In this document: one piece after another, positions 1-48,376 of the stretch | Layout: each line of letters starts with the position of its first letter | Position numbering within the stretch: position 1 is the first letter of the stretch | NCBI GenBank assembly: GCA_030147525.1 | Contig: JASBVF010000034.1 | Span: 1 to 64,000 of the forward strand | Direction: 5' to 3' | DNA length: 64,000 nt | Origin: Bacteroidota bacterium | GTDB lineage: Bacteria; Bacteroidota; Bacteroidia; Chitinophagales; Saprospiraceae | Translations under genes and position numbers: made by a program | The notes under the pieces: generated by a model | What the model was told of the DNA's origin: nothing | The model's database searches: none | What the model saw: only the letters and a program-made list of their open reading frames with translations

Positions 1-136
1 GGTAGGCAAGTAGGCAAGTAAGCCGGTAGGCGAGTAGGGACCGTATTTCAATGGTTTAGAATTTAGCAATTGAAAAATGGTCCCCTACCGGCATACTTGC
101 CTACTCGCCTACCGGCCTACTTGTTTACTGCCTACT
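1..136. repeat. Octamer-repeat hairpin, locus A
   Basis: An inverted repeat whose left arm (2-42) is a run of 8-base words with consensus GTAGGCAA. Its right arm (79-135) is the reverse complement of the same kind of run. Variant words such as GTAAGCCG/GTATGCCG appear in the same order in both arms, but the arms differ by a whole word near the loop (43-78). The right arm runs into the last codons and stop of the thioredoxin gene on the minus strand. The left arm may continue outside the window. Confidence 0.85.
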
Positions 137-667
137 CTCCAAAAAACTATCCACCTCCGCAGTCGACATATCCACCCCGGTGATGTGCCCTTTTTCATCG
201 ATCAAAAACTTGGTAGGAAGTTGCTTAACACCATACTGGTTAGCGATGGGCGAATCAAAAAACCGCAGACTGCTGGCAGGGTCCAGTATCTGGTATTTCC
301 ACGGCATCTGAAAACGCTCGAGCGCCCGGGCCCAGCGGTCTTTGTCCTTCTCCACCGCTACGCTGACGATGGTAAAACCTTCCGCTTCCCTGAATTTCTG
401 CCCCTCGTACTTTTGATACAAAGCCTTTAATTCCGGCATTTCCTGGATGCAGGGACCACACCAGCTGCCCCAAAAATCGAGCAGCACGTAATGCCCCCGC
501 AGATCGGAGAGCTTGAACGCCTTGCCGTCGGGGAGCATGGAAATGAAATCCGGCGCTTTGTCTTTTTCATTGAAATCCGGCTGCATGTAGAAGTGTTTCA
601 CCACCGTAAAAATGCCGACAAACACTACGAAACCGATGAGAATATTGATGAAGTTGAACTTTTTCAT
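125..667 (-). CDS. TlpA-family thioredoxin-like protein, membrane anchored
   Basis: A 180-residue thiol-disulfide oxidoreductase-like protein. One N-terminal hydrophobic segment (about residues 6-24) should anchor it in the inner membrane with the thioredoxin fold in the periplasm. The active site is WCGPC at residues 69-73, and the cis-proline loop QLPT lies near residue 151. This is the TlpA/ResA architecture, in which proteins reduce disulfides in exported or cytochrome c maturation substrates. The substrate cannot be read from the sequence. The ATG at 667 is preferred over an in-frame TTG six bases upstream, because a promoter-like TAATCTTTG ends three bases before that ATG. The last codons lie inside the arm of repeat locus A. 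Confidence 0.88.
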
Positions 668-727
668 ACGCAAAGATTAGAAAACGTGAGGTAAACAAGC
701 CATGATAATATTTGGTTGGATCAAGCC

Positions 728-755
728 TTGTTAGCAGGGTAAAGTTATATGTTTG
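728..755 (+). promoter_or_regulatory. Bacteroidota-type promoter upstream of the 843 lipoprotein
   Basis: TTG (728-730), 17 bases, then TATGTTTG (748-755). This fits the Bacteroidota sigma-ABfr consensus (TTTG/TTG, about 17-20 bases, TAnnTTTG). Confidence 0.6.
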
Positions 756-770
756 TGGCACTGCACTTTT

Positions 771-831
771 AGCTATTGGCCTTTGGCTTTAGCTTCCGGA
801 TCGTGCCAAAGGCTAATAGCCAAAAGCCAAA
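771..831. repeat. Heptamer-repeat hairpin, locus B
   Basis: Stem arms 771-787 and 805-821 match at 15 of 17 positions. Read on the minus strand, the right arm is a run of 7-base words of the form TTGGCTT/TTGGCTA/TTAGCCT/TTGGCAC. It lies between divergent genes, in the likely 5' leader of the 843 gene, so it is unlikely to be a plain terminator. Confidence 0.7.
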
Positions 832-842
832 ACCAACCCATC

Positions 843-1241
843 ATGAAAATCAAAATCCTGCTTTCATTCTTCTCTCTTTCGCTTTTCATCGCCTGCGGCA
901 AAGACCCCGACATCCTGGAAGACCCCACGTCTTTCGAAGAACCTGCCAAGCTGGAAGTCCAGGTACAACTTTGCCTCAACGAAGCCTGCGACTCGCTGAC
1001 ACAGATGCCCGGCGCCCGCATTTTTTTATTTGAAAATGCACAGTATCGCTCCGAAGGCTCGCCCATCGCTTACGACGGCACGACCAACGGCTTTGGCAAG
1101 GTAAGATTTGAAGCCCTCGACAGTCTGAACTATTGGATGACGATCAAAATGCCCAACCCCGATGGCAGGTCGCAATTTGAACAGGTCAAAACGCCAAAAC
1201 GCACCACGACGTTTGTGGAGGTGGTTTTTGAAAAGGGATGA
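843..1241 (+). CDS. Small lipoprotein of unknown function
   Basis: A 132-residue protein with a signal peptide and lipobox ending at Cys18 (LFIAC), so it is predicted to be a lipid-anchored envelope protein. The mature part is acidic at its start and then looks like one small beta-rich domain with a Cys pair (CLNEAC). No family was recognised. The ATG at 843 is chosen because it gives a standard lipoprotein signal; the longer reading frame upstream would bury that signal. A promoter lies at 728-755 and a repeat hairpin sits in the leader. It converges on the GCS2-CBS gene. Confidence 0.75.
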   Translation: MKIKILLSFFSLSLFIACGKDPDILEDPTSFEEPAKLEVQVQLCLNEACDSLTQMPGARIFLFENAQYRSEGSPIAYDGTTNGFGKVRFEALDSLNYWMTIKMPNPDGRSQFEQVKTPKRTTTFVEVVFEKG

Positions 1242-1310
1242 GAAAATAGGGATGAGGAATGCTGAGTGCCGTTTCATCCCTCATTCCTCATCCCTATTCC
1301 CTATTTCGTC
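1237..1310. repeat. Heptamer-repeat hairpin, locus C, between convergent genes
   Basis: A perfect 17-base-pair stem (1245-1261 with 1282-1298) built from 7-base words of the type AATAGGG/ATGAGGA. It fills the gap between two convergent genes whose stop codons are at 1239-1241 and 1301-1303, and the outer repeat words extend over those stops. It could end transcription from both sides, but there is no clean T-tract. Confidence 0.8.
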
Positions 1311-3238
1311 GCTTCCAGCCGTTCCATCAGGCGGGCAGAAACCCGGAGGAAATCCATTTCAGTGATGATGCCGACAAGCTCCCGGTGGTCGCCCTGCACG
1401 ACGGGCAGGCAGCCGATATGATTTTCACGCATCATACGCATGGCATCCATGATGGGCGTTTTGGTGGTGACGGTTTTTGGGTCTTCGATCATAATATCTT
1501 TGACCGTGGTTAACTCATCCTTGCCATTCAGCCGGCTTTTGCGGGCATAATGGCGAAGGAGCAGCCGGGAAGTAACCAGCCCGACCAGTTTCCCCTTCGA
1601 ATCTTCCACCGGAATATAACGCACCTTGCGCCAATCCATCATTTCAGCCAGCAGGTCGATGATGTCGTCCTTTTGCACGGTGATGAGGTCGGTGGTCATA
1701 AACTCTTCGACTCGCAGCCGGGAAGGAACGTACTCTTCCAGCTCGGCCGGGTCCGGAAGATTCCAGGTGTGTACGGGCATTTCTTTTTCCTGATTTTTAA
1801 CAATGCAGGCCGTCATGACGGCGGCTGCCTCATCGTTGGTGATAGATTGTTTCAGTTTGGTGAAAGCACGAAGCTGCCACCGGGCGCCGGTCATGTGTGC
1901 TTTGGCCCGCTCTTCGATGGTGCCCAGGTAGCGGTCAATGTCGGCAGTATCGATTTTTCGTTCCTTCAAACCTTCCCGTGCAATGGGTAGCAACTCATTC
2001 ACAATCAGATCTACTGCCGTGTATTTTTTATCGTCGTACCAATTGAATTTTGAATCAATGCCGTAGCGGGCTGCTTTGAGGAAGTTGTCCCTCACGTCCT
2101 CCCACGACAACCGTTTGCAGATGTCGTCGCAAGTTTTTTGCATACCCACCATGGCGCCCAGCCAGAACGCTGCGTTGGCCATTTCATCAATCACCGTTGG
2201 CCCTGCCGGCAACACCCGGTTTTCGATGCGAAGGTGCGGCTTGCCGTTGGCGCTGATGCCGTAGCAGGGGCGGTTCCAGCGATACACCGTGGAGTTATGG
2301 ACGAGCAGCGATTTCAGTTTGGGTGTTTTACCCTCCATGATTTTTGCCAGCGAATCTTCCAGCTCGTCGGCCGTCATGAGTACCCGGAAGCGGGCGATGT
2401 CCTCCCGGTATATTTCCAAAATGGAATCGTGCAACCAGCCGCTGCCGAAGTTTACCCTCGGGCTGCGCTCCCGCAGGTGGTCGTGCGAGGTGCGGGTGTC
2501 GAGTGACTGCTGGAAAAGGGCGATCCTCGTTTCATGCCAGAGGCGTTTTCCAAAAACAATGGGCGAATTGGCTGCAATCGCCATCACCGGCGCCGTCAAC
2601 GTCTGTGCAATGTTGTAAAGGCAGACAAAATCCTTCGGCGCCACCTGCAGGTGTACCTGGAAACTCGTGTTGCAGGCTTCGAGCAGCGGCGAATCGTGTT
2701 TGATGTGCAGCTCGTCGATGCCGTTGAGATTCAGCTCAAATGTTTCACCAATCAACTGGCTGTGCAACGCATCCATCAACGCCCGGTAACGAGGCTTGGG
2801 CGTGAGGTTTTCAAGATCGAGATCTGACTTCCGGAGAGTGGGCAGAATGCCGGTGAGGGCAATGCTTGCGCCCATTTTTTTCACCGTTTGCCGGATTTTT
2901 GCCAGGTTCGTGAGGTTTTCATCCTCCATCGACCGAAGCGCATTGCCGGTGAATTCAAACGGCGTCATGTTGGTTTCAAGATTGAATTGCGCCAGCTCGG
3001 TGTCGAGCCAGGGGTAATCCTTCATCTTTTTTATCACCTCCATGTTGATCTTTGCCGGCTTGAAGGTTTTGCTGTCAACGATACACATTTCCTGCTCGGC
3101 TCCGATGCGCACAATGTCGCTCTCGAACCAGTCGTTATCGAGCATGTACTCGAAGGCTTGCAGGTCGTCGAGCAGACCTCTGACAAATTTTTGCAGGTCG
3201 GTCTGCGTTTTTGCTAAGGAAACTTTTTGTTCGCCCAT
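1301..3238 (-). CDS. Glutamate-cysteine-ligase-like (GCS2 superfamily) protein with C-terminal CBS pair
   Basis: A 645-residue protein. The first ~490 residues resemble the GCS2/YbdK carboxylate-amine ligase fold (IGAEQEMCIVD near residue 45, then conserved NTSFQVHLQV, SPRVNFGSGW and HLRIENRVLP segments). The last ~150 residues hold two CBS repeats (VEEFMTTDLITV and VKDIMIEDPKTV) that usually bind adenine nucleotides. The inference is an ATP-dependent peptide-bond-forming or related enzyme controlled by nucleotide binding; its substrate is unknown. The ATG at 3238 fits the protein start. The in-frame extension upstream is a low-complexity run of 8-base words and is probably leader. Confidence 0.82.
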   Translation of the reverse strand: MGEQKVSLAKTQTDLQKFVRGLLDDLQAFEYMLDNDWFESDIVRIGAEQEMCIVDSKTFKPAKINMEVIKKMKDYPWLDTELAQFNLETNMTPFEFTGNALRSMEDENLTNLAKIRQTVKKMGASIALTGILPTLRKSDLDLENLTPKPRYRALMDALHSQLIGETFELNLNGIDELHIKHDSPLLEACNTSFQVHLQVAPKDFVCLYNIAQTLTAPVMAIAANSPIVFGKRLWHETRIALFQQSLDTRTSHDHLRERSPRVNFGSGWLHDSILEIYREDIARFRVLMTADELEDSLAKIMEGKTPKLKSLLVHNSTVYRWNRPCYGISANGKPHLRIENRVLPAGPTVIDEMANAAFWLGAMVGMQKTCDDICKRLSWEDVRDNFLKAARYGIDSKFNWYDDKKYTAVDLIVNELLPIAREGLKERKIDTADIDRYLGTIEERAKAHMTGARWQLRAFTKLKQSITNDEAAAVMTACIVKNQEKEMPVHTWNLPDPAELEEYVPSRLRVEEFMTTDLITVQKDDIIDLLAEMMDWRKVRYIPVEDSKGKLVGLVTSRLLLRHYARKSRLNGKDELTTVKDIMIEDPKTVTTKTPIMDAMRMMRENHIGCLPVVQGDHRELVGIITEMDFLRVSARLMERLEATK

Positions 3239-3302
3239 GGACTTTGGGTGTTTGTGTTTTTGAGTATTGATGTTTCTTTTGTCTGGATTTTTGTGTGTCT
3301 TT
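3239..3302. repeat. Single-armed octamer-like repeat upstream of the GCS2-CBS gene
   Basis: On the plus strand the stretch reads as about eight successive degenerate 8-base words (GTGTTTGT, GTTTTTGA, GTATTGAT and so on), like loci E and H, but with no opposing arm. It may be a decayed or half copy of the hairpin family. It lies in the leader of the minus-strand gene. Confidence 0.5.
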
Positions 3303-3436
3303 GAAGCGCTTTCCTCCAACCGTTCAACACAACAATAATTCAGCAAAGCAATTAATATTGCTGAAATTAGCCAAATCTCTTCGAGATTAAAATTTTTTTA
3401 AAAATTCATTGTGTTACAAACAACAAGAATTCGATA

Positions 3437-3967
3437 ATGAAAAACTTCTCCATCTTTTTATTGGCGGCCCTTTTCTTTTTTTCCTGTAAAAAAGAAGAAG
3501 CCCCGTCCCTGCTCAGAATTCCCGTTACCAACCTGAAATTTTCCGTGGACCAAACCTACCAGCCCGGTTTCGAATATTTCATCCCCATCAACAATGTGAA
3601 AACCAACGCCATGAACCTGCTCAACGCCCGTGGCATCGATACCACCACCATCAACAGCATCCGCCCGGGCAGAGCTACCCTGACCGCTCTTTTCAACCAG
3701 TCGGATCTTAACTTCATCGACGCCGTCTCCATTCGCCTCTGCCCCCTCGGCGAGGACAAGGAAAACTGCGGCCAGGAAGTCTTCTACCGTGACCCCGTCC
3801 CGTTTCAACCCGGCATCGACCTCGACCTCATCCCCAGCAATGTCAATGACATCCGGGACTTCGTGCTGCCCGACAACATCAACGTGCAGGTCAAGTTCGA
3901 ACGCCTGCGGTCCTTTCCCCAGGGAAGTTTCGATATAATATTGGATATGGAGTTTTATGTGCGGTGA
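3437..3967 (+). CDS. Lipoprotein of unknown function
   Basis: A 176-residue protein with a short signal peptide and lipobox (FFFSC, Cys17) followed by a charged KKEE linker. The mature part looks like a single beta-sandwich (many alternating hydrophobic strands, e.g. LKFSV, NVQVKF, DIILDMEF). Its role is not recognisable. It stands alone, upstream of a second secreted protein with which it may be co-transcribed (gap 113 bases). Coding is supported by strong C-ending codon use and an intact frame. Confidence 0.72.
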   Translation: MKNFSIFLLAALFFFSCKKEEAPSLLRIPVTNLKFSVDQTYQPGFEYFIPINNVKTNAMNLLNARGIDTTTINSIRPGRATLTALFNQSDLNFIDAVSIRLCPLGEDKENCGQEVFYRDPVPFQPGIDLDLIPSNVNDIRDFVLPDNINVQVKFERLRSFPQGSFDIILDMEFYVR

Positions 3968-4080
3968 GGGGGGAGAGTGTCGAGTTGAAAACAGGTGAGA
4001 AGAATTAGTGATAAGGTTATATCTTGCGAAGCAATGGCCGGAGTTAGCACCACTATGAAAATCATTTTTAACACCATCAC

Positions 4081-4716
4081 ATGCCTAAAACAATCAACAT
4101 CCTGGCGTTCATCTTTATGTTCGCCGTATCCGTCAGGGCACAGGACCATGAGACGGAGGCGGTCAGGGCTGCATTTGAGAATTACAAATCGGCCATCCTC
4201 AACGACAGGGGAGAGGAGGCTGTCAACTACATCGACAGCCGCACAGTGAAATACTATTCGGACATCCTGGAGCAGGTAAAACAGGCCGACTCACTTACCC
4301 TGGAATCCCTCTCCCTGCTCGATAAAATGATGGTACTCTCGATCCGCCACCGCTCGACAAAGGAGCAGATCGATTCATTTGACGGCAAAGGAGTGCTGGT
4401 GTATGCCATCCGTGAAGGGATGGTGGGTAAAAACAGCGTAGCCAACAATGGCATCGGCGATATTACCGTCGATGGCAGCTTTGCCAAAGGACAACTGAAT
4501 ACCAACGGGCAAAAAGCGCCGTTTTATTTTCATTTCTACAAGGAAGATGGCGCATGGAAGATCGACCTCACCTCGCTTTTTCCGGTATCGAACATGGCTT
4601 TTAAAAAAATGGTCAACGAAAGCGGCCAAACCGAGAACGGCTTCCTGCTTTTGTTGCTTGAAATGATCAGCGGGAAAAAGCCGGGCAAGGAGATTTGGGA
4701 GCCTTTTGGAAAGTGA
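4081..4716 (+). CDS. Secreted protein, possibly NTF2-like
   Basis: A 211-residue protein with a cleavable signal peptide (cleavage likely after Ala20, VRA|Q). The early helix 'EAVRAAFENYKSAILNDRGE', a tyrosine/serine-rich middle and 'YKEDGAWKIDLTSLF' near the end resemble NTF2/DUF4878-type domains, where a helix is followed by a curved sheet. This is a resemblance only and no ligand is implied. It is followed by a terminator that serves the opposing CsbD-like gene. Confidence 0.65.
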   Translation: MPKTINILAFIFMFAVSVRAQDHETEAVRAAFENYKSAILNDRGEEAVNYIDSRTVKYYSDILEQVKQADSLTLESLSLLDKMMVLSIRHRSTKEQIDSFDGKGVLVYAIREGMVGKNSVANNGIGDITVDGSFAKGQLNTNGQKAPFYFHFYKEDGAWKIDLTSLFPVSNMAFKKMVNESGQTENGFLLLLLEMISGKKPGKEIWEPFGK

Positions 4717-4798
4717 TACCTGGCTGATCTGTTGATCCTAAGTTTTTCATTTGAAATATTACATCCGCTCCTGACAGAAGGAAGCGGAATACGTAGCC

Positions 4799-4844
4799 AA
4801 AAAAACAAAAAAGCTCCACATTGTGCCTGCGCAGAATGTGGAGC
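4799..4844 (-). terminator. Intrinsic terminator of the CsbD-like gene
   Basis: A 10-base-pair stem (4813-4822 with 4835-4844), followed on the minus strand by TTTTTTGTTTTTTT. It lies 23 bases past the stop of the CsbD-like gene. Confidence 0.85.
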
Positions 4845-4866
4845 CGGACTATAACTTTTATCGCTG

Positions 4867-5067
4867 TTAAGCTTCCACAGCGTTGTCAATAAATTCTTTG
4901 AGTTCTGATTTGGCTTTACCGGTTTTCTTCTGAATACGGCCCAGCAGTTCTTCCTCCTGGCCTTCGGCATAGACGAGGTCCTTGTCGGTCAGCTCGCCGT
5001 ATTCCTGTTTCAGTTTACCTTTGATGACGTTCCAGTTGCCTTTTAGTTTATCGGTGAATGCACTCAT
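4867..5067 (-). CDS. CsbD-family stress protein
   Basis: A 66-residue soluble, highly charged protein that starts MSAFTDKLKGNWNVIKGKLK, the classic CsbD/YjbJ opening, and continues with a GELTDKDL stretch. CsbD-family proteins accumulate under general or osmotic stress; their biochemical role is not established. The ATG at 5067 is chosen because it begins the conserved domain exactly. A minus-strand promoter-like TACTATTTG (5104-5112) and a palindrome just upstream suggest the gene is regulated. It has its own terminator and is monocistronic. Confidence 0.88.
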   Translation of the reverse strand: MSAFTDKLKGNWNVIKGKLKQEYGELTDKDLVYAEGQEEELLGRIQKKTGKAKSELKEFIDNAVEA

Positions 5068-5120
5068 GATTTTAATATTTTTGGTTAGAAAAAATGGTTT
5101 TGACAAATAGTAAAGATCCA

Positions 5121-5141
5121 TGCACCTCATTGAAAGGTGCA
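5121..5141. promoter_or_regulatory. Palindrome upstream of the CsbD-like gene, possible operator
   Basis: A perfect inverted repeat TGCACCT-N7-AGGTGCA. It sits directly upstream of the minus-strand -7-like element, in the position of a spacer/-33 operator. There is no T-tract on either side, so it is not a terminator. Confidence 0.45.
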
Positions 5142-5367
5142 GGCATCAACCTGTTTTTCGTTAAAATAAAGGGAAGTTGAATGGCGGATCTTTATGGTCG
5201 GTTGAGGTTTGGTTTTCAGGGTGATTCATTCGGGTTAATCTGTGGTTAAAACGGGCGGGCTGGGTTGATGTTCAAATGAAGTTTAAAAATGGTGGAAAGG
5301 TGTGCATGCGGTGATAGCGGGCTAACTTTTTTCCTCTTTTTAAACCCATCCTACTCTCCCGTTCCCT

Positions 5368-5375
5368 TAACTTTG
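5368..5375 (+). promoter_or_regulatory. -7 box TAACTTTG upstream of the aldehyde dehydrogenase
   Basis: TAACTTTG followed by CGG, 60 bases before the start codon. It matches TAnnTTTG; no clear -33 TTTG is seen. Confidence 0.5.
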
Positions 5376-5435
5376 CGGCCTTCCTGAAAAACCGGTGTTT
5401 CCCTGACATGTTTAAAGCCATTTTAAAATCCACCA

Positions 5436-6962: not shown

Positions 6963-7002
6963 AGCGGCATTTTTGCTAATTTCGCCGCTCGTTTTTGAAA
7001 AT

Positions 7003-7064
7003 GGGGTGAAAAGTTGAAGGGTTGAAGTGTTTAACCTTTTCAACCCTTCAACTTTTCAACCCAA
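7003..7064. repeat. Octamer-repeat hairpin, locus D
   Basis: A perfect 20-base-pair stem (7007-7026 with 7039-7058). The words are 8 bases long (GGGTTGAA/AAGTTGAA). It lies between two co-directional genes, aldehyde dehydrogenase and adk. Confidence 0.85.
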
Positions 7065-7094
7065 CATTTTTTCAGCTTTTCAAACCAACTACAG

Positions 7095-7667
7095 ATGATC
7101 AACCTCATACTCTTCGGCCCTCCCGGCTCCGGCAAAGGAACACAGGCAGCCAAGCTCGTCGAGCAATACGAACTGGTGCACATTTCCACCGGCGACCTGT
7201 TTCGCTATGAAATGGGCAACGACACGCCCCTCGGCAAGCTCGCCAAAAGCTACATCGAAAAAGGCGAGCTCGTGCCCGACTCGGTCACCATCGGCATGCT
7301 GAAAAACAAGGTGGACGCCAACCCCGATGCGAACGGCTTCATTTTCGACGGCTTCCCCCGCACCGTAGCCCAGGCCGAAGCCCTCGATGAACTGCTGGAA
7401 GAAAAAGGCACCGCCGTCTCCGGCCTGCTTTCCCTCGACGTCAGCGACGAGGAAATCACCCAGCGCATCCTGCTGCGTGGCAAGACCAGCGGCCGTGCCG
7501 ACGACAACGACGAGAAGATCATCCGCAATCGGATTGAAGTTTATAAAAATGAAACCACGCCGGTCTTTGACTACTACGCCAAAGCCGGCAAAGCACAAAA
7601 GATCGACGGCATGGGCAGCATCGAAGAGATCTTCGGACGCCTCTGCGCTGCGATCGATGCACTTTGA
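7095..7667 (+). CDS. adk: Adenylate kinase
   Basis: A 190-residue enzyme catalysing ATP + AMP = 2 ADP in the cytoplasm. The P-loop GPPGSGKGTQAAKL begins near residue 6, the FDGFPRT segment of the AMP site is near residue 80, and the GRADDN lid start follows. The lid is the short form without zinc cysteines, as expected for about 190 residues. It lies directly upstream of obgE with only the octamer hairpin (locus E) between them, so a shared transcript is possible. Confidence 0.97.
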   Translation: MINLILFGPPGSGKGTQAAKLVEQYELVHISTGDLFRYEMGNDTPLGKLAKSYIEKGELVPDSVTIGMLKNKVDANPDANGFIFDGFPRTVAQAEALDELLEEKGTAVSGLLSLDVSDEEITQRILLRGKTSGRADDNDEKIIRNRIEVYKNETTPVFDYYAKAGKAQKIDGMGSIEEIFGRLCAAIDAL

Positions 7668-7668
7668 T

Positions 7669-7745
7669 TGTGTTTGCGTGTTTGTGTGTTTGGGTGTTTG
7701 TGACGCCGCAAACACATAAACACCCAAACACACAAACACACAAAA
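7669..7745. repeat. Octamer-repeat hairpin, locus E (adk-obgE)
   Basis: A perfect 22-base-pair stem (7678-7699 with 7718-7739) made of 8-base words GTGTTTGT/GTGTTTGG. It begins two bases after the adk stop and ends just before the obgE start. It uses the same word as locus H, about 41 kb away. Confidence 0.88.
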
Positions 7746-7752
7746 ATCATCC

Positions 7753-8769
7753 ATGGCTGAACAAAACTTTGTCGACTACGTGAAAATCTGCTGCCGCTCC
7801 GGACATGGAGGCGCAGGTAGTGCGCATTTTCACCGTGACCGCTTCACACCCAGAGGCGGCCCCGACGGTGGCGACGGAGGACGTGGCGGCCATATCATCC
7901 TGCGGGGCAACCGCAATACCTGGACGCTGCTCCACCTCAAATACCGCAAACACGTCATCGCCTCCGACGGAAAACCCGGTGGTGCCAGTACTTCCACCGG
8001 CGCCAGCGGCAAGGACGTCATCCTCGACGTACCCCTTGGTACCGTTGCCAGGGATGCCGAGACCGGTGAAATTCACTTTGAAATTACCCAACACGAAGAG
8101 GAAAAAATCCTGACGCCCGGCGGCCGTGGCGGCCTCGGCAACAATCATTTCAAAACAGCCACCAACCAGGCCCCCGAATACGCCCAGCCCGGTGAAGACG
8201 GCCGGGAAGAATGGAAAATCCTGGAGCTCAAGGTCCTCGCCGATGTTGGTCTCGTCGGCTTTCCGAATGCCGGCAAGTCAACCCTCGTTTCGACCTTGTC
8301 AGCAGCCAGACCTGAAATCGCCGATTATCCTTTCACCACGCTCGTGCCACAGCTTGGCATGGTCAGTTACCGGGATCACAAATCTTTCGTCATCGCCGAC
8401 ATTCCGGGAATCATCGAAGGAGCACACGAAGGCCGTGGCCTCGGTCACCGTTTTCTCCGACACATCGAGCGCAATGCTACGCTGTTGTTCATGATTCCCT
8501 GCATCACCGAAAACATTCGTAAGGAGTACGATATCCTGGTCAATGAGCTCAGGCAATATAACCCCGAATTGCTCGACAAACCCCGGGTGCTTGCCATCAC
8601 CAAGGTCGACCTGATTGATGCGGAAATCGTTGAAATGCTGCGCAGGGAGGAAGTGCCGCAAGACATTCCCGTCGTTTTCATCTCAGCTGTTGCCGAGCAG
8701 GGCATCGACGAGTTGAAAGATGTACTGTGGGCAACGATGAACAAGGATGCGGAGGAATCAGGATTCTGA
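7753..8769 (+). CDS. obgE: GTPase Obg/CgtA
   Basis: A 338-residue ribosome-assembly and stress GTPase. It has the glycine-rich Obg fold (about 1-158, with [16 protein letters not shown] and [11 protein letters not shown]), then the G domain: G1 [11 protein letters not shown]3 ADIPGI, G4 TKVD and a G5-like FISA. It lacks the extra C-terminal OCT domain, as is common outside Firmicutes. The protein acts on the large ribosomal subunit. The ATG at 7753 follows hairpin locus E directly. Confidence 0.97.
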
Positions 8770-8803
8770 TTACAGACAGGCAGTTTTCACTTTATTTACA
8801 GGC

Positions 8804-8832
8804 AAAAAAAAATCCGGCATAAAAATGCCGGA
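8804..8832 (-). terminator. Intrinsic terminator on the minus strand
   Basis: An 8-base-pair stem TCCGGCAT/ATGCCGGA (8813-8820 with 8825-8832), followed on the minus strand by nine T. It lies 390 bases beyond the end of the nearest minus-strand gene. Confidence 0.85.
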
Positions 8833-11560: not shown

Positions 11561-11578
11561 GCTTAGATTTTCCGATCG

Positions 11579-15258: not shown

Positions 15259-15303
15259 GCGGCAAACGGTGGACGGGACCGTTGACCGTCCACCGTTTGC
15301 CGC
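15259..15303. terminator. Perfect hairpin between convergent genes
   Basis: An 18-base-pair perfect stem (15259-15276 with 15286-15303) and 9-base loop, ending exactly at the stop of the M23 gene (15304). It could serve as a bidirectional terminator, but T-tracts are weak. It resembles the repeat hairpins in position but has no short-word periodicity. Confidence 0.6.
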
Positions 15304-34843: not shown

Positions 34844-34848
34844 GGAGA

Positions 34849-34922
34849 GTTGTTTGATGGCTGAATTGTTTGATTGTTAATGCTTTACGCAACAATCAAA
34901 CAATTCAGCCATCCAACCATCA
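34849..34922. repeat. Octamer-repeat hairpin, locus F, between convergent genes
   Basis: A perfect 22-base-pair stem (34857-34878 with 34891-34912) from 8-base words of the type GATGGTTG/GATGGCTG/AATTGTTT. It fills the gap between the MoxR stop (34843) and the opposing gene's stop (34920). Confidence 0.88.
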
Positions 34923-39485: not shown

Positions 39486-39788
39486 TCAGTTAAGGTTGTT
39501 TTGGTGATATCTGGAGTTAATTTCCCGGTGAGGTTGGTCGAACGCTCTGATCGCAATAACCATCAGAATGATCGCCCCTGAAACGACCAGCTCTTTCAGA
39601 AAGAGTCCGTTTGACATCCAGGAAAGTGAAATTGAAACGGATAGAAGAACAGCAGCAACGGCCAACATTTTTACAGGCCTGACGCTCTCCTTTCTGCTTT
39701 TCGTTTTGATAAAAGATACTTTTGGGTATCTCTTTTTGTCGTGTAGAACACTGGGTGTTTCTACTGTTTCTTGAAATGTGTTTTGCAT
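39486..39788 (-). CDS. Small membrane protein of unknown function
   Basis: A 100-residue protein with a basic N-terminal half and two hydrophobic segments (about 42-58 and 65-80) and a basic tail, likely an inner-membrane hairpin. No family was recognised. The ATG at 39788 is chosen since it lies past a CAATTTTG -7-like box (minus strand, 39811-39818). It is divergent from the LysR gene 87 bases away, so it is a candidate target of that regulator. Confidence 0.6.
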   Translation of the reverse strand: MQNTFQETVETPSVLHDKKRYPKVSFIKTKSRKESVRPVKMLAVAAVLLSVSISLSWMSNGLFLKELVVSGAIILMVIAIRAFDQPHREINSRYHQNNLN

Positions 39789-39830
39789 AAAGATTTTTTT
39801 TTTGACGGGGCAAAATTGAGGGGCATTTTT

Positions 39831-39846
39831 ATAAATCAAAATTTAT
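39831..39846. promoter_or_regulatory. Palindrome, likely LysR operator
   Basis: ATAAAT-CAAA-ATTTAT is a perfect inverted repeat in the region between divergent genes. Its right arm overlaps the TATCTTTG -7 box of the LysR gene (39844-39851). The form and place fit an autoregulatory LysR-type binding site. Confidence 0.5.
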
Positions 39847-39851
39847 CTTTG
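39844..39851 (+). promoter_or_regulatory. -7 box TATCTTTG of the LysR gene
   Basis: It matches TAnnTTTG, 24 bases before the LysR start codon, and overlaps the palindrome. Confidence 0.55.
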
Positions 39852-39875
39852 TAATGAAATGCATAAACGAATGTT

Positions 39876-40799: not shown

Positions 40800-40871
40800 T
40801 TTTTAAAACAAAAAAGATTTTATTATTTGTTTTTGTAAAACAATTTGTTAAAAAATATCTTCGCCTTTTTG

Positions 40872-40879
40872 TATTTTTG
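40872..40879 (+). promoter_or_regulatory. -7 box TATTTTTG upstream of parC
   Basis: It lies 17 bases before the parC start codon. A TTTG at 40844-40847 lies 24 bases upstream, further than the consensus spacing. Confidence 0.45.
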
Positions 40880-40896
40880 CACGGAAATTTTGAAAC

Positions 40897-43611
40897 ATGG
40901 CAAAATCACAAGATACGTCTCCTGATAATCTCGGAATTCCTCCAGTCGAGCCTAACGGTAATGGTCACTCCCATGCTGAAGGGCACATCATCACTATCTC
41001 TGGTATGTACGAGAATTATTTTCTCGACTATGCCAGCTATGTCATCCTCGAACGGGCTGTGCCAGCCATTGAAGATGGGCTGAAACCCGTACAGCGGCGC
41101 ATCCTCCATGCCATGTTCGAAAAGGAGGATGGCCGATACAATAAGGTCGCCAACATCATCGGGAACACCATGCAGTACCACCCGCACGGTGACGCAGCTA
41201 TTGGCGATGCGCTTGTAAATCTGGGACAAAAAGAACTGATGATCGATACGCAGGGAAACTGGGGTGACTATCGCACCGGTGACTCTGCTGCGGCTCCCCG
41301 TTACATTGAGGCGAGATTATCGAAGTTTGCGTTGGAGGTGGCTTTCAACCCCCAAACCACAGAGTGGCAGCTGAGCTACGACGGCCGCAAGCGGGAGCCC
41401 ATCTCCCTGCCGATGAAATTCCCGATGATTCTTGCGCAGGGTACTGATGGTATTGCCGTGGGACTTTCCACCAAAATTTTACCGCATAATTTCATTGAAC
41501 TCTGCAAGGCATCGATGGATATTTTGAAGGGTAAGCGGGTGAAAATTTACCCTGACTTTCAGACCGGTGGCATGATAGATGTGACGGACTACAACGGCGG
41601 AGAACGGGGCGGCAAGATCAAATGTCGGGCGAAAATTGAAAAAGCAGATAAAAACGTATTGTTAGTCAAGGAGTTACCGTATGGCGTAACAGTATCCTCC
41701 CTCATCGACAGCATCACGAAAGCGGCCGAGAAAGGCAAGATCAAAATCAAAAAAATCGATGACAATACCGCCGCTGAGGTCGAGATCTCCATCGAACTCG
41801 CTCCCGGCGTGTCGCCCGACGTGGCAGTAGATGCGCTCTACGCTTTCACCGATTGCGAGTCCTCCATTTCACCCAACGCCTGCATCATCGTAGACAACAA
41901 GCCTATTTTTACGACGGTGGAGGAAATCCTGCGCATTTCAACCGAGAACACAAAGGATCTGCTGCGCCAGGAACTGGAGATCAAAAAACATGAGCTGGAG
42001 GAAAAATGGCTTTTCTCCAGCCTGGAGAAAATTTTTATTGAAAACCGGATTTACCACCAGATCGAAGAGTGCGAAAGCTGGGAAGCGGTAATCGAAGTGA
42101 TTTACCGGGAAATGCGAAAGTATGTCGCCACCCCTTCCGACCATGCCGGAGCTTCTGACAAACGCCTCAAACTTTTCCGGGAACTGACCGATGACGATAT
42201 CACCCGTTTGACTGAAATCAGGATCAAGCGTATTTCAAAATACAATTCCTTCAAGGCCGATGAACTCATCGAAAAAATCATCGAAGAACTGGAGGAAACG
42301 CAACACCATCTCGACAATCTCACCGATTATGCCATCGCCTGGTTCCAGAACCTGCTCGACAAATACGGCAAGGGCCGGGAGCGGCGCACCATCATTTCCG
42401 GTGGTTTCGAAAGTATTGAAATCGCCCAGGTGGCGGCCAACAATGCCAAACTTTACGTAGATCGTAAGGAGGGCTTCATCGGTATGGGTCTGAAAAAAGA
42501 AGGGGAGTTTGTTTGTGATTGTTCCGACATAGACGACATCATCGTGTTCCGGAAGGATGGCAAGTTCCTCGTCTCCCGTATCTCCGATAAAACTTTCGTG
42601 GGCAAGGATATCATCCATGTGGACGTCTGGAAAAAAGGCGACGAACGCACCACTTACAACATGATGTACCTCGACGGAAAAACGGGGATTACCCGTGCCA
42701 AGCGCTTCAACGTGACAGCCATCACCCGTGACAAAGAGTATGACCTGACCACGGGTACACCCAATTCAAAGCTGCTCTATTTCACCGCCAACCCGAATGG
42801 TGAGGCTGAACTTGTGACGATCACGCTAAGCCCAAGCTGCCCCGCAAGGATCAAGATTTTTGATTATGGCTTTGCCGACCTTGACATCAAGGGGCGTGGC
42901 TCGCAGGGCAACATCGTGACGAAATACCCTGTCAAAAAAGTCGTGTTGAAAGAAGCGGGCCAATCCACTATCGGCGCCATCAAAATCTGGATGGACGAGG
43001 TGAGCGGACGCCTGAACAATGATGAGCGGGGCAAGTTTCTCGGGGCTTTCGATACCGGCGACCAGATACTTGCCGTGTACAACGACGGCACTTATGAAAC
43101 TACTGACTTTGAAATGACCCGTCGCTTCGAAGTGAAAGATCTGGCTGCGATCACCAAACTCAAGCCGGATACCGTCATCAGCGCCGTTTATTTCGAAGGT
43201 AACAAGGAATGGACGGTGGTGAAACGTTTCCAGGTCGAGACGAATACAACTGGCCAACGCTTCCAGTTTATTACTGATCACAAAAGCTCAAAACTCTACT
43301 TCGCTTCTACGGAAGAGACGCCGGTCATTAAGTATAGTTATAAGGAAAAAAATCAGAAACACGAGGGCGAAGTCAACCTCGCTGAATTCATCGATGTGAA
43401 AGGCTGGAAGGCCACGGGCAATAAGCTTATTGATTATAAAATTTTGAGCGTCAAGGAGTTGGAGGTAAAAAAGCCGGCATCGGAAGAGGCGGAAAGTTTA
43501 ACGGCCGAAGAAGAACAGAAAACGGACAAAACAGCTCCTCAGCAAAAGCTTCATGCCGGAGACTCAATTGATCTTGATGTGGACACCAAGGGGCAGGGGA
43601 AGCTGTTTTAA
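40897..43611 (+). CDS. parC: DNA topoisomerase IV subunit A
   Basis: A 904-residue type IIA topoisomerase A subunit that cuts and passes DNA in chromosome decatenation. It has GLKPVQRRILHAM, the active-site tyrosine Tyr136 in AAPRYIEARL, and C-terminal blades. The gyrase-specific GyrA box (QRRGGKG) is absent, favouring ParC over GyrA. An acidic C-terminal tail follows. It is on the same strand as, but 12 kb away from, gyrB; parE is not in the window. Confidence 0.9.
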   Translation: MAKSQDTSPDNLGIPPVEPNGNGHSHAEGHIITISGMYENYFLDYASYVILERAVPAIEDGLKPVQRRILHAMFEKEDGRYNKVANIIGNTMQYHPHGDAAIGDALVNLGQKELMIDTQGNWGDYRTGDSAAAPRYIEARLSKFALEVAFNPQTTEWQLSYDGRKREPISLPMKFPMILAQGTDGIAVGLSTKILPHNFIELCKASMDILKGKRVKIYPDFQTGGMIDVTDYNGGERGGKIKCRAKIEKADKNVLLVKELPYGVTVSSLIDSITKAAEKGKIKIKKIDDNTAAEVEISIELAPGVSPDVAVDALYAFTDCESSISPNACIIVDNKPIFTTVEEILRISTENTKDLLRQELEIKKHELEEKWLFSSLEKIFIENRIYHQIEECESWEAVIEVIYREMRKYVATPSDHAGASDKRLKLFRELTDDDITRLTEIRIKRISKYNSFKADELIEKIIEELEETQHHLDNLTDYAIAWFQNLLDKYGKGRERRTIISGGFESIEIAQVAANNAKLYVDRKEGFIGMGLKKEGEFVCDCSDIDDIIVFRKDGKFLVSRISDKTFVGKDIIHVDVWKKGDERTTYNMMYLDGKTGITRAKRFNVTAITRDKEYDLTTGTPNSKLLYFTANPNGEAELVTITLSPSCPARIKIFDYGFADLDIKGRGSQGNIVTKYPVKKVVLKEAGQSTIGAIKIWMDEVSGRLNNDERGKFLGAFDTGDQILAVYNDGTYETTDFEMTRRFEVKDLAAITKLKPDTVISAVYFEGNKEWTVVKRFQVETNTTGQRFQFITDHKSSKLYFASTEETPVIKYSYKEKNQKHEGEVNLAEFIDVKGWKATGNKLIDYKILSVKELEVKKPASEEAESLTAEEEQKTDKTAPQQKLHAGDSIDLDVDTKGQGKLF

Positions 43612-43797
43612 ACTAGCTGATGATGTGATTGCCGGTTCTGCTTTTGCACGGTCGGGTGTTTATTTGTGCTGATTTGTTTTGAGCTTTCAGTTTTAGTTAA
43701 AACAAATGGTAAGGGTTTACCTGACCCTAAAATACAAGGTTTTTTTTATCGAATAAAAATCAAGTATTTTGAGCTTTCAAATCAAACTAAACGGCAC

Positions 43798-45633
43798 ATG
43801 GAACCAACGAGACTTTTTGATTTTCTCTACTACCAACAGCAAAAATTCCCACAGGAAAAATCTTTCGGCTACCGCCAAAATGGCAACTGGGTCTATTTCA
43901 GTACCGCTGAAATGATCGAAATGGCCAACAAGGTCAGCCTCGGCCTCATCGCCAAACTGGGCGTAGAGCCCGGCGATAAAATTGCACTCGTTTCCACTCA
44001 AAACCGACCGGAGTGGGTGGCGTTGGATATCGGCATTCAGCAGGCGGGAGCCATCAGCGTACCGGTTTATCCGACCATCAGTCAACGGGATTACGAGTAC
44101 ATTTTCAATGAAGCGGAAGTGAAATATTGCTTTTGCGGTGGTGAGGATTTGGTGAAAAAAGTCCGGGACACCCAGCAAAATGTGTCCTCCCTCAAGGAGG
44201 TTTTTTCATTTGATGAAATGCCGGGTACACCCAGTTGGGAAACAATCTGGATGGAAGGCGATTTTTCGCCGGTTGAAAAGATCAAAAATGCCATTCAGCC
44301 CGGCGATCTTGCCACTATCATCTACACGTCCGGCACTACGGGTGAGCCGAAGGGCGTCATGCTTTCCCACAACAATGTCGTCAGTAACATCCTGTCGGTG
44401 GCACCCATGGTGCCGGTAAAGGCGGGCGAACGGGCGCTGAGTTTTCTGCCGCTTTGCCACATCTTCGAGCGTGCTGTGACGTATGCTTACCTTCATCACG
44501 GTGTCAATGTTGTGCAAACCGGAACTGATAATCTTGGAGGCGATGAAGGCGACCTGAAAGCCATCAGGCCGCATTTTTTCACCACCGTGCCACGCCTGCT
44601 GGAAAAGGTGTACGAAAAAATTGTGAACAAAGGCCGTGAACTTTCCGGGCTGAAGCGCAGCCTGTTCTTCTGGGCTATGGACCTCGCCGACGATTTTGAA
44701 TACGATAAAAAATATACCGGCTTGGCTGCGTTGAAACGCAAAATTGCCGACCGTCTCATTTTTTCAAAATGGCGGGAAGCGCTCGGCGGCAACGTCAAGG
44801 GCATTCTTACCGGCTCCTCGGCTTGTCCTGTAAAAATCGCCAGGGTATTTTCGGCGGCTGGTGTCCCGATTAGGGAAGGATACGGGTTGACAGAAACATC
44901 GCCCGCCCTGACCATCACCAGGTTTGAACCCGGCGGTGCGGTGCTTGGAACGGTCGGCCCGGCCATTACGGGGGTTGAAATTAAAATCGATCCCACCGAC
45001 GGAGATTACAAGCCAGGGGAGGGCGAAATTTTAGCCAAAGGCCCGAACGTCATGCTGGGTTACTACAAAAAACCGGAGGCAACTGCGGCCGTCATTAAAG
45101 ATGTGAACGGCGAGCGCTGGTTTCACACCGGCGACATCGGCAAGTTGGTGGACGGCCCCGGCGGCAAAAAATATTTGAAAATCACCGACCGGAAAAAGGA
45201 ATTGCTGAAAACCTCCAACGGCAAATACGTCGCCCCGGCACCCATCGAGAGCAAGTTCAGGGAGGATTTTTTGATCGAACAGATCATGGTAGTGGGCGAG
45301 CAGCAGAAGTTCGTTTCGGCGCTCATTGTGCCTGCTCAGGAGGCGTTGCAGGACTGGTGCACCCACCACGGCGTTGAATTTACCTCGCTCGGTGACGTAA
45401 TTCGCCTTCCAAAAATTCAGGAACTCTACCAGGAATTGATCGAGAAATACAATCCGCTTTTCAGCCACGTCGAGCAGATCAAACAATTCCGCCTGCTCGA
45501 TGCCGTATGGGAACCCGTGAAACCCGACGGCTCGGAAGGGGAACTCACCCCGACGATGAAACTGAAACGCCGGGTCATCCAGGCGAAATATGCCCCGGTG
45601 ATTGAGGAGATTTATGCTGGAAGGAAGGAATAA
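43798..45633 (+). CDS. Long-chain acyl-CoA synthetase
   Basis: A 611-residue adenylate-forming ligase that activates fatty acids to acyl-CoA. It has the AMP motif YTSGTTGEPKGVMLSHNN, GYGLTETSPA, the WFHTGDIGKL segment and DRKKELLKTSNGKYVAP. Length and the extra insert fit the long-chain ACSL/FadD15 type. The ATG at 43798 starts the conserved domain; the longer frame upstream is AT-rich leader. No fatty-acid degradation operon surrounds it. Confidence 0.93.
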   Translation: MEPTRLFDFLYYQQQKFPQEKSFGYRQNGNWVYFSTAEMIEMANKVSLGLIAKLGVEPGDKIALVSTQNRPEWVALDIGIQQAGAISVPVYPTISQRDYEYIFNEAEVKYCFCGGEDLVKKVRDTQQNVSSLKEVFSFDEMPGTPSWETIWMEGDFSPVEKIKNAIQPGDLATIIYTSGTTGEPKGVMLSHNNVVSNILSVAPMVPVKAGERALSFLPLCHIFERAVTYAYLHHGVNVVQTGTDNLGGDEGDLKAIRPHFFTTVPRLLEKVYEKIVNKGRELSGLKRSLFFWAMDLADDFEYDKKYTGLAALKRKIADRLIFSKWREALGGNVKGILTGSSACPVKIARVFSAAGVPIREGYGLTETSPALTITRFEPGGAVLGTVGPAITGVEIKIDPTDGDYKPGEGEILAKGPNVMLGYYKKPEATAAVIKDVNGERWFHTGDIGKLVDGPGGKKYLKITDRKKELLKTSNGKYVAPAPIESKFREDFLIEQIMVVGEQQKFVSALIVPAQEALQDWCTHHGVEFTSLGDVIRLPKIQELYQELIEKYNPLFSHVEQIKQFRLLDAVWEPVKPDGSEGELTPTMKLKRRVIQAKYAPVIEEIYAGRKE

Positions 45634-45768
45634 AAAAAAACTTCGCTCATGTTCTCTTTATGCTGAAATTGTAGAACGAAGGGAAACTACATCTGAAAAT
45701 CAGGTAGATATCAATTTAATAGCTTCCTTCAGCACTAAAGAATATGAGCGGCCTTAACTTATTGCTGG

Positions 45769-47781
45769 TTATTTAATCAAAACGACATCACCACTGTAAA
45801 TAATTTTTTCCCCATCCGGAAATTCAATTTCAGCGAACCATGCATAGATTCCTCCTTGTAAATCCTTGCGTTTCGCTTTACCGTCCCAGCCGAAGTATGG
45901 GTCATTGGTCGCTCCATTTTCCGAAGTAAAAATCAAACCACCCCACCGGTCGAAAATTTTAAAACTTCGTACCGGCAGGCTGTGTTTGGATTGGAGATAA
46001 AACAGGTCGTTGATGCCATCATTGTTGGGGCTGAAGGCATTGGGTGCAAATATTTTACGCATCGCATTGATTTTCAATTCGTCGATAGCCACACACCCGG
46101 CTTCATTTTTTACCCACAGTGTCACAAGCGTATTTTCCTGCAATAAAAATTCAACTTCCTCGCAATTTTCACAGGTAAACCCACCAGGGCCACTAACAGA
46201 CCACAAATTTGTGATGATTGGAGACAAAAAATCATAAGAAGGGAGTATCTGTATTAAATCACCGAACTGGCCAATGGTGTCAGGCCCCAAAGACACAGAG
46301 AGCGGGGAGTCAATAACCAGGAAAGTAGCCGAATCTCGCTCGCAGCCACCGGTGACGGTAACCGAATATTCACCGCTTTGAGTAATACGTATTTCGGAAG
46401 CATTTGAGCCGTTGCTCCATAAAAAACTGATGCCGGTAGTATCGTTCAAAGGTCGTAAGATAAGGCTGGAGTCTTTGCAAAGCTCAAGGGCCTCTTCATC
46501 CAAATCAATCACCAACGGCAGAATCGTCAATGGGGTAGCATCTCTTTTGGCAATGGTTGCAGGGTTGTCTGAAAGGATACTGTTCATGGTTTGGTTTGTT
46601 CCGCTCAGATCAGCATCAGTCAAAACAGCTTGATTCAGATATACACCTTCTGCTCCTTCGGGCACCATAACTTTTACCATCAGGCTATCAATTCCGTAGG
46701 GTAGATTGATACCCGATATTTCAAGTGTATTGGTATTTAGCCCATTGATTTGGCCACCAAAGGGATTTCTTACTATTTCGGTGAAAAGAAAGCCGGGAGG
46801 CAGGCTGTCTCGAAAGGTTACCGAATCCTGGAGGTTTTTCGTCAGGTTTGAAATACGGAATTTGTAGAGTACTTCCGTGCAGGCATAGGTAGTGTCAGGA
46901 GTTACCGTCTTTTCTATGGATATGGTGTAGGGACAGGAGCAGCCATCATATAAAAAGTAGGCAGCGGGCACAACATTACTGAAACTGTCCATAAGAATAG
47001 TTTCAAGAATGCCTGTAGTCGTGTTAATTTCAGCCCACCGGCCATACATTGGAGGGACCCCGTCGATTCCAAATAAATTGCCAAAGGGATCGAACATCAG
47101 GGAAAATGTATGTTCATAACTTACTGGATTTTGGAAAAACAATAGGTTGTCGATAATCCCGGCAGATGGGTCAATAATTACCGTTTTCCCACCATGTGGA
47201 TTGGGTTGATTGTTGAATATTGTTTGGTAGTCAAAACTGAAAAGCTGTTCTGTCAGGGGGTGAAAAGCTATATCTCCTGTTAAAATTTGGGGTGCGCCTC
47301 CGAGTGTTTCCAACAAAATTTCATCCATTTCATAGTTGCCAGACCCCAAGTCAAAAGTTATAGCCAGATTTGGCTCAGTGATATTCCCTTTAGGGGCTGT
47401 TAAGAATATAATCTTTGATCCATCTGGTGTGACGTCAGCCGCAGACAAGAATTGCCATGTTGTAGTGTCATAAGGAATAGGTTTAATCAAACTGGCTTCA
47501 CCACTGCTATCTATACGGCATATATAAGTAATGCCATTCGACTGGGCAGTTCCATAAATGAAATTATCTTTTCTATTGTAGGCAATGGAGTGAATCAGAA
47601 AACCAGTGGGCTTGGAAAGCGGGCTTAGCTCGACAGTGTCGGCTTGGCGGTCAAAAGTGATGCGATAGACCTGGCCATGGTAGTCAACAACAAACATGCT
47701 GCCGTCGCATGAAAATGGAGTCTGAGACAAGAGAATGATAAAGGGGAGGCATAACAAAAAAGAGAGTGTGAGTTTTTTCAT
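45769..47781 (-). CDS. T9SS type B (CHU_C) sorting-domain protein
   Basis: A 670-residue exported protein with a signal peptide. It has an N-terminal SdrD/DUF6923-like repeat region (SMFVVDYHGQVYRITFD), a DUF11-type conserved domain near residues 290-400 (SIEKTVTPDTTYACTEVLYK), an Ig-like segment (LWSNGSNASEIRITQSGEYS) and the gliding-associated C-terminal sorting domain (APNAFSPNNDGINDLFY ... RWGGLIF). The sorting domain marks T9SS export and surface attachment, possibly as an adhesin. AT-rich, unlike its GC-richer neighbours. Confidence 0.88.
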   Translation of the reverse strand: MKKLTLSFLLCLPFIILLSQTPFSCDGSMFVVDYHGQVYRITFDRQADTVELSPLSKPTGFLIHSIAYNRKDNFIYGTAQSNGITYICRIDSSGEASLIKPIPYDTTTWQFLSAADVTPDGSKIIFLTAPKGNITEPNLAITFDLGSGNYEMDEILLETLGGAPQILTGDIAFHPLTEQLFSFDYQTIFNNQPNPHGGKTVIIDPSAGIIDNLLFFQNPVSYEHTFSLMFDPFGNLFGIDGVPPMYGRWAEINTTTGILETILMDSFSNVVPAAYFLYDGCSCPYTISIEKTVTPDTTYACTEVLYKFRISNLTKNLQDSVTFRDSLPPGFLFTEIVRNPFGGQINGLNTNTLEISGINLPYGIDSLMVKVMVPEGAEGVYLNQAVLTDADLSGTNQTMNSILSDNPATIAKRDATPLTILPLVIDLDEEALELCKDSSLILRPLNDTTGISFLWSNGSNASEIRITQSGEYSVTVTGGCERDSATFLVIDSPLSVSLGPDTIGQFGDLIQILPSYDFLSPIITNLWSVSGPGGFTCENCEEVEFLLQENTLVTLWVKNEAGCVAIDELKINAMRKIFAPNAFSPNNDGINDLFYLQSKHSLPVRSFKIFDRWGGLIFTSENGATNDPYFGWDGKAKRKDLQGGIYAWFAEIEFPDGEKIIYSGDVVLIK

Positions 47782-48105
47782 GGCTTAAGGTATAAAAAGC
47801 TGATATTGTATAAGTTGAAATAGTGGATCGAAAACCCGCTTATTAAAGTTGAAAAATTAACGTCGGCAAGAATGAAATATTTTGATTAAAAGTTGCTTAC
47901 ATATTCTATTAATTACAATAAAACCGATCCTTATAGAAAATGCTTTTGAAGGAAATGCTTACTGCCCTTTACACGCTTTTATTCGAACTTTCCTCCAGTT
48001 TATAACCCGTTCATTTACCTTTAATTTTTTCGTTCATTGACAATTTTTGTGGTAAAAATCCGAAGGTCTTGATGCACAGAAATTGTTAAAAAATGACTTT
48101 TTTAA

Positions 48106-48185
48106 AAACACAGAGGCACGAGACACAACGGGACACCAGAGTAAATGTCTCTTGGAAATCCGCCGTGTCTTGTGCCTCCGTGTTT
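48106..48185. repeat. Repeat hairpin, locus G
   Basis: Arms 48106-48126 and 48165-48185 pair at 19 of 21 positions. The sequence is built from CAC-spaced words (about 7-8 bases apart: CACGGAGG, CACAAGA, CACGG), more degenerate than at the other loci. Confidence 0.65.
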
Positions 48186-48224
48186 AAGTGTAACCCGGAA
48201 CCTCCATTTTTTCCCCGGCGTTCT

Positions 48225-48232
48225 TACCTTTG
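48225..48232 (+). promoter_or_regulatory. -7 box TACCTTTG upstream of glyS
   Basis: It matches TAnnTTTGC and lies between the two hairpins, so the glyS transcript should carry hairpin H in its leader. Confidence 0.5.
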
Positions 48233-48282
48233 CGCCCTTTAAAAAGAAACATTTTACGAGCAAATCGTATGTGAATAGCATT

Positions 48283-48376
48283 GTGTTTGAGTGTTTGGGT
48301 GTTTGTGTGTTTGTGAAGATGGCTGCGGCTGTCCACAAACACCCAAACACCCAAACACCCAAACACCCAAATACAC
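48283..48376. repeat. Octamer-repeat hairpin, locus H (glyS leader)
   Basis: The left arm 48283-48315 is GTGTTTG[AGT] words (8 bases each). The right arm 48334-48376 is their complement and has one extra word. It ends four bases before the glyS start codon and uses the same word as locus E. Confidence 0.88.

Follow-up and report, generated by a model that had tools for sequence, protein, structure and literature searches.

Intergenic hairpins whose arms are runs of degenerate tandem short words are scattered over a 64,000-nucleotide stretch of a Saprospiraceae genome (Bacteroidota bacterium, GenBank assembly GCA_030147525.1, contig JASBVF010000034.1, positions 1 to 64,000; the whole of this stretch is called here the window) and over the genomes of its sister species. 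These hairpins mostly stand at gene ends, usually carry the G-rich arm first and, in the gap between adk and obgE, persist in a group of species that each have a word of their own. The reading that we prefer, to which we give about an even chance, is that they are gene-end stems, presumably functional, whose place, length and polarity are inherited, the word itself being rewritten by slippage, by copying from arm to arm and by exchange from site to site.

The stem is well kept at the adk-obgE gap. In the window, the hairpin at 7665..7749 (word GTGTTTGT, period 8, arm-periodicity p 0.002) starts at the stop codon of adk (adenylate kinase, 7095..7667, + strand, over the cut-off of NCBIfam NF001381) and ends 3 nt ahead of obgE (Obg family GTPase, 7753..8769, + strand, over the cut-off of TIGR02729). 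The comparison drew on 14 genomes of the genus and, since one of them (G010) gave no adk match, 13 were compared. Nine of these 13 carry a periodic hairpin in the gap, spanning from -8 to +2 of the stop codon through -1 to +16 of the start codon, and each has a different word: GTGTTTGT, TATTGGG, GTCATTG, GGTTGAATT, GGATGCT, GGTTATTG, GAGTTTT, AATTGGG and AAATTGGG. Both arms are replaced together in every species carrying the hairpin, and the words of the near neighbours G007 and G011 are unrelated. On average, the left arm reaches 0.68 of the maximum match to its own right arm, versus 0.25 to those of other species and 0.21 after shuffling, and the own right arm is the best match in eight of the nine species. 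In a midpoint-rooted tree of the adk and obgE proteins, the nine carriers fall on one side of a split with support 82/84, a modest value below the tool's star level; outside this group stand G009, G002, G003 and G005, plus two genomes of other genera that nest beside G003 and G005. The gaps of G002 and G009 (52 and 36 bp) hold no hairpin, and G003 and G005 have in common a terminator-like stem, GGGCAATGG-loop-CCATTGCCC, with a T-rich tail, of a kind that a pattern scan alone would find by chance 0.6-0.8 times per region. When the same gap was inspected by eye in 65 named Saprospiria loci, the clear periodic hairpins were those of L122 and L130, which are the genus members G012 and G008.

Beyond this gap, a hairpin finder was run over 2.45 Mb, comprising 864 kb of the window's own genome (window included), 784 kb from nine sister genomes, 400 kb from four family-level relatives and 400 kb from five order-level relatives; hairpins were retained at a score of at least 15 and called periodic when their arms gave p<0.02 against within-arm shuffles. 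A scan of whole Saprospiria genomes for inverted repeats with internal 7- or 8-base periodicity had been proposed by the first-pass annotation of the window, and the scan of this sample brought out many, 72 of the 251 hairpins being periodic, with lags mainly of 8 and 7, then of 9 and 10. The own genome has about 39 periodic hairpins per Mb and G008 has 64, as compared with 10 for the family-level relatives (whose sample includes one 4-kb overlap, L097 and L098), 2 for the order-level ones and none in the G005 and G006 samples; these densities are only rough and may be too high, because the stretches were taken at regular steps or preselected, mostly on contigs known from matches to window hairpins or adk, and because the own genome is uneven (28 in the first 464 kb, 6 in the next 400 kb). 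At a stricter score of at least 17, 464 kb of own sequence gave 59 hairpins, 24 of them periodic, and no hairpin reached that score in locally shuffled sequence, one copy of each of 16 sets. The 65 named loci around adk (1.01 Mb, some from genus members) contain 94 hairpins, 14 of which are periodic.

The 5' arm of the periodic hairpins is usually G-rich and C-poor: G exceeds C in 68 of the 72, equals it in one and is exceeded in three, whose periods are 10-12. Among hairpins with p>0.1, taken as non-periodic, the 5' arm is G-rich in 96 versus 51 cases. The G-first order prevails by 12 versus 2 in the named Saprospiria adk loci and, in the biased set of all loci fetched, in 113 of 122 periodic hairpins (8 opposite, 1 tie). 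An independent route, in which tandem arrays were detected with Tandem Repeats Finder (TRF) and then paired, gave 48 of 51 complementary pairs with G first, two with C first and one tie (46 versus 0 when a skew cut-off was applied and two duplicate loci were included), and neighbouring arrays with unrelated words favoured the G-first order by 20 versus 12. Where arrays in co-directional gaps lack a partner, neither orientation prevails on the transcript (41 G-rich, 32 C-rich, 4 ties), and therefore the rule belongs to pairing, either to the making of the partner or to the choice of which hairpins are kept. The same lack of preference led us to reject the idea that polarity arises because C-rich RNA, which loads Rho, is avoided. 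G-quadruplexes were rejected as well, four G3 runs being present in one of the 63 periodic hairpins of the genus and four G2 runs in 27. As a separate observation, long arrays of GAGGAACT/ATTCCTCG are present in G003 in the order G-rich then C-rich, separated by long spacers and in some cases differing in word (L323:6218-6591, L326:206-718).

Placement was assessed for these 63 periodic hairpins, found in 1.65 Mb of the genus, with genes called by hexamer score. They lie in co-directional (37), convergent (13) and divergent (4) gaps, the other nine standing at edges or over called genes; the three kinds of host gap reported earlier for the window thus all occur, but divergent ones are uncommon (4/54, versus 18% of gaps, p 0.049). 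A periodic hairpin is present in about 7% of gaps of at least 40 bp (54 against 795). In co-directional gaps, which have a median of 97 bp and are filled by the hairpin to a median of 84%, 27/37 periodic hairpins start within 12 nt of the upstream stop codon, versus 15/40 non-periodic ones, and 25/37 versus 12/40 end within 16 nt of the next start codon; both are reached by 21/37 periodic and only 4/40 non-periodic hairpins.

The arms are also matched word by word. Arm identity averages 0.87 in register and 0.72 one word out of step, the neighbouring words within an arm being 0.71 identical, and the in-register alignment beats the best one-word shift in 35 of the 40 hairpins (out of 72) that could be tested, a result favoured by the finder itself, which picks the best register. 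The statement in the first-pass annotation that variant words follow the same order in both arms therefore holds. Its further suggestion, that the arms are copied or corrected from each other and are not terminators, stands in part: the arms are in register and, as given below, do not look like terminators, but copying and selection for pairing are not separated by these data. In three homologous gaps with the same word, inspected by eye, a change affects both arms at two paired positions and a single arm at two others.

Words recur widely across sites, and the earlier claim of a different word at each site holds only in part and not as a rule. The sequence GTGTTTGN is common to two window sites, and the words of the sites at 34849 and 1230 are found again at many unlinked places in sister genomes. 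The 63 genus hairpins form 24 word clusters and include 57 element pairs with at least three common 9-mers, whereas random tandem words matched in composition give 0.7 such pairs on average and at most 6. Against the own genome, the adk region gives at least 62 matches, counted on the best 40 of 120 candidates scored, at many places on both strands; the locus itself aside, all of them fall on the two hairpins that flank adk. Among the members compared from 12 word families, loops and flanks are unrelated, and thus it is the words that are common to sites, not whole hairpins. Stop codons in every frame were considered as a reason for the words and rejected as a general one, because the GTGTTTG word has none.

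Outside the genus, a plasmid search with two window elements gave no match, and the G008 word GTCATTG matched 19 plasmid records weakly (E 4e-4 to 0.8; Rhizobium 7, Nostoc 6, Pantoea 2, others). The five GTCATTG-matching records that were inspected are all unpaired tandem arrays. L342 (Rhizobium sp. N324 plasmid pRspN324c) and L345 (a Pantoea agglomerans plasmid) contain clean arrays of the heptamer CCAATGA, with no inverted partner, that correspond to the GTCATTG word found in G008 and in Nostoc plasmids. Two other dispersed hairpin families were met on the way. One is non-periodic, with the core TTGTCATTGCCGCAGGCAACCTG (L055:12803-12923), and occurs in many copies in the own genome and in those of G007 and G008, with clusters on G007:C115 and G008:C20; in one G007 gap it stands where the word hairpin would be. 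The other, GTAACACGGACTGCCAGTCCGTG, resembles the repetitive extragenic palindromes (REPs), is common to G007 and G001, and stands at L066:12651-12753 and L078:4521-4620.

At other orthologous gaps the stem is only partly kept. At L055:13598, two own copies and G001 belong to one word family, G011 and G006 have other words, G007 has another hairpin family, and G008 and G004 have, by eye, weaker AATTGAAA-type arms. In the own genome, at C25:242516-244226 and C56:12500-14700, this region has an 82% identical duplicate with a same-word hairpin in the same gap. At L043:12027, G010 carries another word, G009 a word-like hairpin, G006 and G001 half arrays by eye, and G013 and G012 other hairpins, with no hairpin in the pieces fetched from G008, G004, G007 and G003. 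At L298:1674, G001 has another word and terminator-like stems with T-tracts are found in G004, G006, G011 and G013; the terminator rule flags G010 and the G001 hairpin too, and nothing comparable was seen in G002, G005, G003 and G007. For the window sites at 34849, 15259 and 1230, a comparable hairpin is in place at few sister loci. Upstream hairpins are present at the glycine--tRNA ligase orthologues of G007 and G008, with words other than that of the window's 48283 site.

Several of these observations weigh against inherited gene-end stems with a turning word. At gaps other than adk-obgE, the hairpin is kept by a minority of species or is mixed with other structures, and several adk-obgE words have ATTGG in common, so that gradual drift may explain part of their turnover. 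Partnerless half arrays are common (224/316 at period 7-10 and TRF score of at least 30, many of them weak or genic). The eight opposite-polarity hairpins among the 122 include CTCCGTG-type ones in G012, G013 and G006 and one in G007 that lies before its glycine--tRNA ligase gene. One G001 word hairpin, in the gap at L298:1674 and outside the 63, passes the terminator rule. A bias towards G-U pairs in the transcript direction, sought among arm mismatches in co-directional gaps, came out flat for periodic hairpins (41 versus 40); it was flat for ordinary hairpins too (44 versus 46), although those in divergent gaps did show it (17 versus 6), and the test thus lacks a positive control and decides nothing.

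Selection for RNA hairpins alone, with pairing selected base by base and words arising only from slippage within the array, would account for the gene-end placement, the very stable stems and the terminator-like stems that relatives have in the same gaps. We nevertheless find it doubtful, since words are common to unlinked sites far above the null expectation and close species differ by whole words in both arms at once, besides the flat, uncontrolled G-U test. A role as ordinary intrinsic terminators, with stems repetitive by chance, would fit the same placement and stability, and is scarcely credible: the intrinsic-terminator rule is passed by none of the 63 periodic hairpins, versus 22/92 non-periodic ones, and a T-run of at least 4 near the 3' end occurs in 6/63 versus 35/92 (Fisher p 8e-5, calculated on gap-placed hairpins only).

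Conversely, the hairpins may have no function, being neutral slippage arrays that fill spacers up to the coding sequence, with inverted pairing as a by-product. The large share of co-directional gaps that is occupied, the existence of unpaired arrays of the same vocabulary and the uneven density within one genome all agree with such filling, which we consider unlikely since the hairpin is kept at one gap in nine of 13 species when so few gaps overall hold one, since polarity is strong in pairs and absent relative to transcription in unpaired arrays, and since divergent gaps hold few. Mobile palindromes of the REP type or of the miniature inverted-repeat transposable element (MITE) type, one family per word and mobilised by, for instance, a Y1 transposase, would explain why the families are dispersed, and four Y1_Tnp matches over cut-off are present in the own genome. 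This is very unlikely, given that members of a family do not share loops or outer flanks, that arm lengths vary, that only 3/63 have a GTAG/CGTC tag within the left arm's first six bases, all explicable by the GTAGGC word, and that the adk-obgE site keeps its hairpin when the word changes.

If gene-end stems with inherited place, length and polarity are what these hairpins represent, slippage would generate, at a stop codon or immediately behind it, a G-rich, C-poor array of tandem short words, to which an inverted copy would be added on the 3' side, most simply through fold-back synthesis or template switching that starts from the G-rich strand. The arms would be kept matched by further arm-to-arm copying, by selection for pairing, or by both. 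Words, which are seen to be shared between sites, may be copied from one to another, and that of a given site would be replaced over time, as happens at adk-obgE and partly at other gaps. The hairpin would be retained as a two-way transcript-end or intercistronic stem that needs no U-tract. The terminator-like stems of relatives in the adk-obgE and L298:1674 gaps count in favour of this reading. A more specific version, which we put forward tentatively, is that the structure is inherited without its sequence: a directional process, in which the 3' end of the G-rich strand folds back and is extended, would rebuild the stem at its stop codon, always with the same polarity, from whatever word is available, so that place, length and polarity persist through the clade and the word turns over in every species. 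Such a process would leave G-rich then C-rich arrays, an order also seen in joined telomere ends.

Within the window, the seven sites of the first-pass annotation and its looser eighth at 48106-48185 are inverted repeats at the positions it gave, with the strongest lag at 8 for the sites at 1, 6996, 7665, 34852 and 48283 and at 7 for those at 766 and 1230. Periodicity against shuffled arms is significant individually at five of the seven, and borderline or not significant at 1230 (p 0.049) and 6996 (p 0.069), both of which are members of word families found again elsewhere. Apart from the adk-obgE hairpin, and with no strand assigned to any of them, the period-8 sites are 1..136 (GTAGGCAA/GTAGGCGA, p 0.001), 6996..7074 (AAGTTGAA/GGGTTGAA, in the gap between an aldehyde dehydrogenase-type gene and adk), 34849..34922 (GATTGTTT/GATGGCTG, convergent gap, p 0.015) and 48282..48375 (GTGTTTGG, divergent gap, p 0.001), the last lying immediately upstream of the glycine--tRNA ligase start at 48381. 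Those of period 7 are 766..831 (TTGGCTNTTAGCY, p 0.003) and 1230..1310 (GGGATGAGGAATGA, alternating, convergent gap). The strong stem at 48106..48185 is of CACAGAGG-type sequence, its word period not being significant (p 0.94), and a further hairpin absent from the earlier description, GCGGCAAACGGTGGACGG, lies in a convergent gap at 15259..15303 (lag 7, p 0.086 alone, not significant). Whole-word differences between arms are present, as had been claimed, at sites 1 and 48283, the right arm at 1..136 being about two words longer than the left. Folded as RNA, these nine stretches give -30 to -86 kcal/mol, each better than 200/200 dinucleotide shuffles (z -5.2 to -13.8), and Rfam 15 covariance models at gathering score found no match within the window. 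Contig C6 begins within the hairpin at 1..136, and such stems may break assemblies.

The first-pass annotation had taken these hairpins to be undescribed in the phylum. Full-text searches of open-access papers brought up no report of them in Saprospiria or Bacteroidota, although close cases are published for Xanthomonas and Nostoc. Inverted GGGAATC arrays of Xanthomonas are the closest. In the sections that treat them, those arrays are described as G-rich tandem heptamers, intergenic, near stop codons and seldom between divergent genes, with 70 (Xcc) and 75 (Xac) convergent-orientation pairs that are potential stem-loops, and no role is given there (Rehm et al. 2015, PMC4692102). Both kinds are intergenic and made of tandem 7-mers, periods 7 and 8 dominating here with 9 and 10 also present, and both form inverted pairs with the G-rich strands facing (48/51 here), if "convergent" in those sections denotes this orientation, as we read it. 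They differ in that Xanthomonas has, as described in those sections, one conserved word per genome, GGGANTN, and is quadruplex-capable, whereas here many words are present (24 clusters among 63 hairpins), words are replaced, and four G3 runs are confined to one hairpin.

The P6b stem-loop of the Nostoc trnL intron, in the parts of the account that concern it, is a hairpin of degenerate heptamers that occupies a fixed place; its word is either TDNGATT or NNTGAGT, and replacement of one by the other occurred independently on several occasions (Kaasalainen et al. 2015, PMC4476775). Word replacement at a fixed hairpin is likewise what adk-obgE shows, with nine words in nine species; the Nostoc case, as presented there, concerns a single place in a group I intron and two words, whereas the present elements stand between protein genes. 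The heptamer arrays of cyanobacteria include those named STRR. Arrays with the word TAACTGA figure in the relevant part of one study (PMC4679880). The present hairpins resemble cyanobacterial and Nostoc plasmid arrays in that the G008 word GTCATTG is present there and one array (L343) lies in a co-directional gap, and are unlike them in that the five plasmid matches inspected are unpaired direct arrays. REPs, the GTAG-/CGTC-tagged palindromes, are also dispersed and intergenic but, in the portion of the source describing them, have palindrome sequence and tag in common (PMC3733652), whereas here the words are common and the loops are not. Finally, template switching between inverted repeats is reported to homogenise arms in yeast genes; it would keep arms alike in register, although the stems are not tandem-word ones in the passages on this process (PMC8604942). 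The unexpected parts of the present case are that one polarity holds over many words and that a stem persists in a species group whose members each build it from a new word.

A conserved gene-end structure can escape detection by sequence conservation. A comparison of strains in this group could tell apart arm-to-arm copying, word turnover and stem selection. The G-rich-arm-first rule unites these hairpins with the Xanthomonas heptamer pairs, and any mechanism proposed for making or keeping them must account for it.

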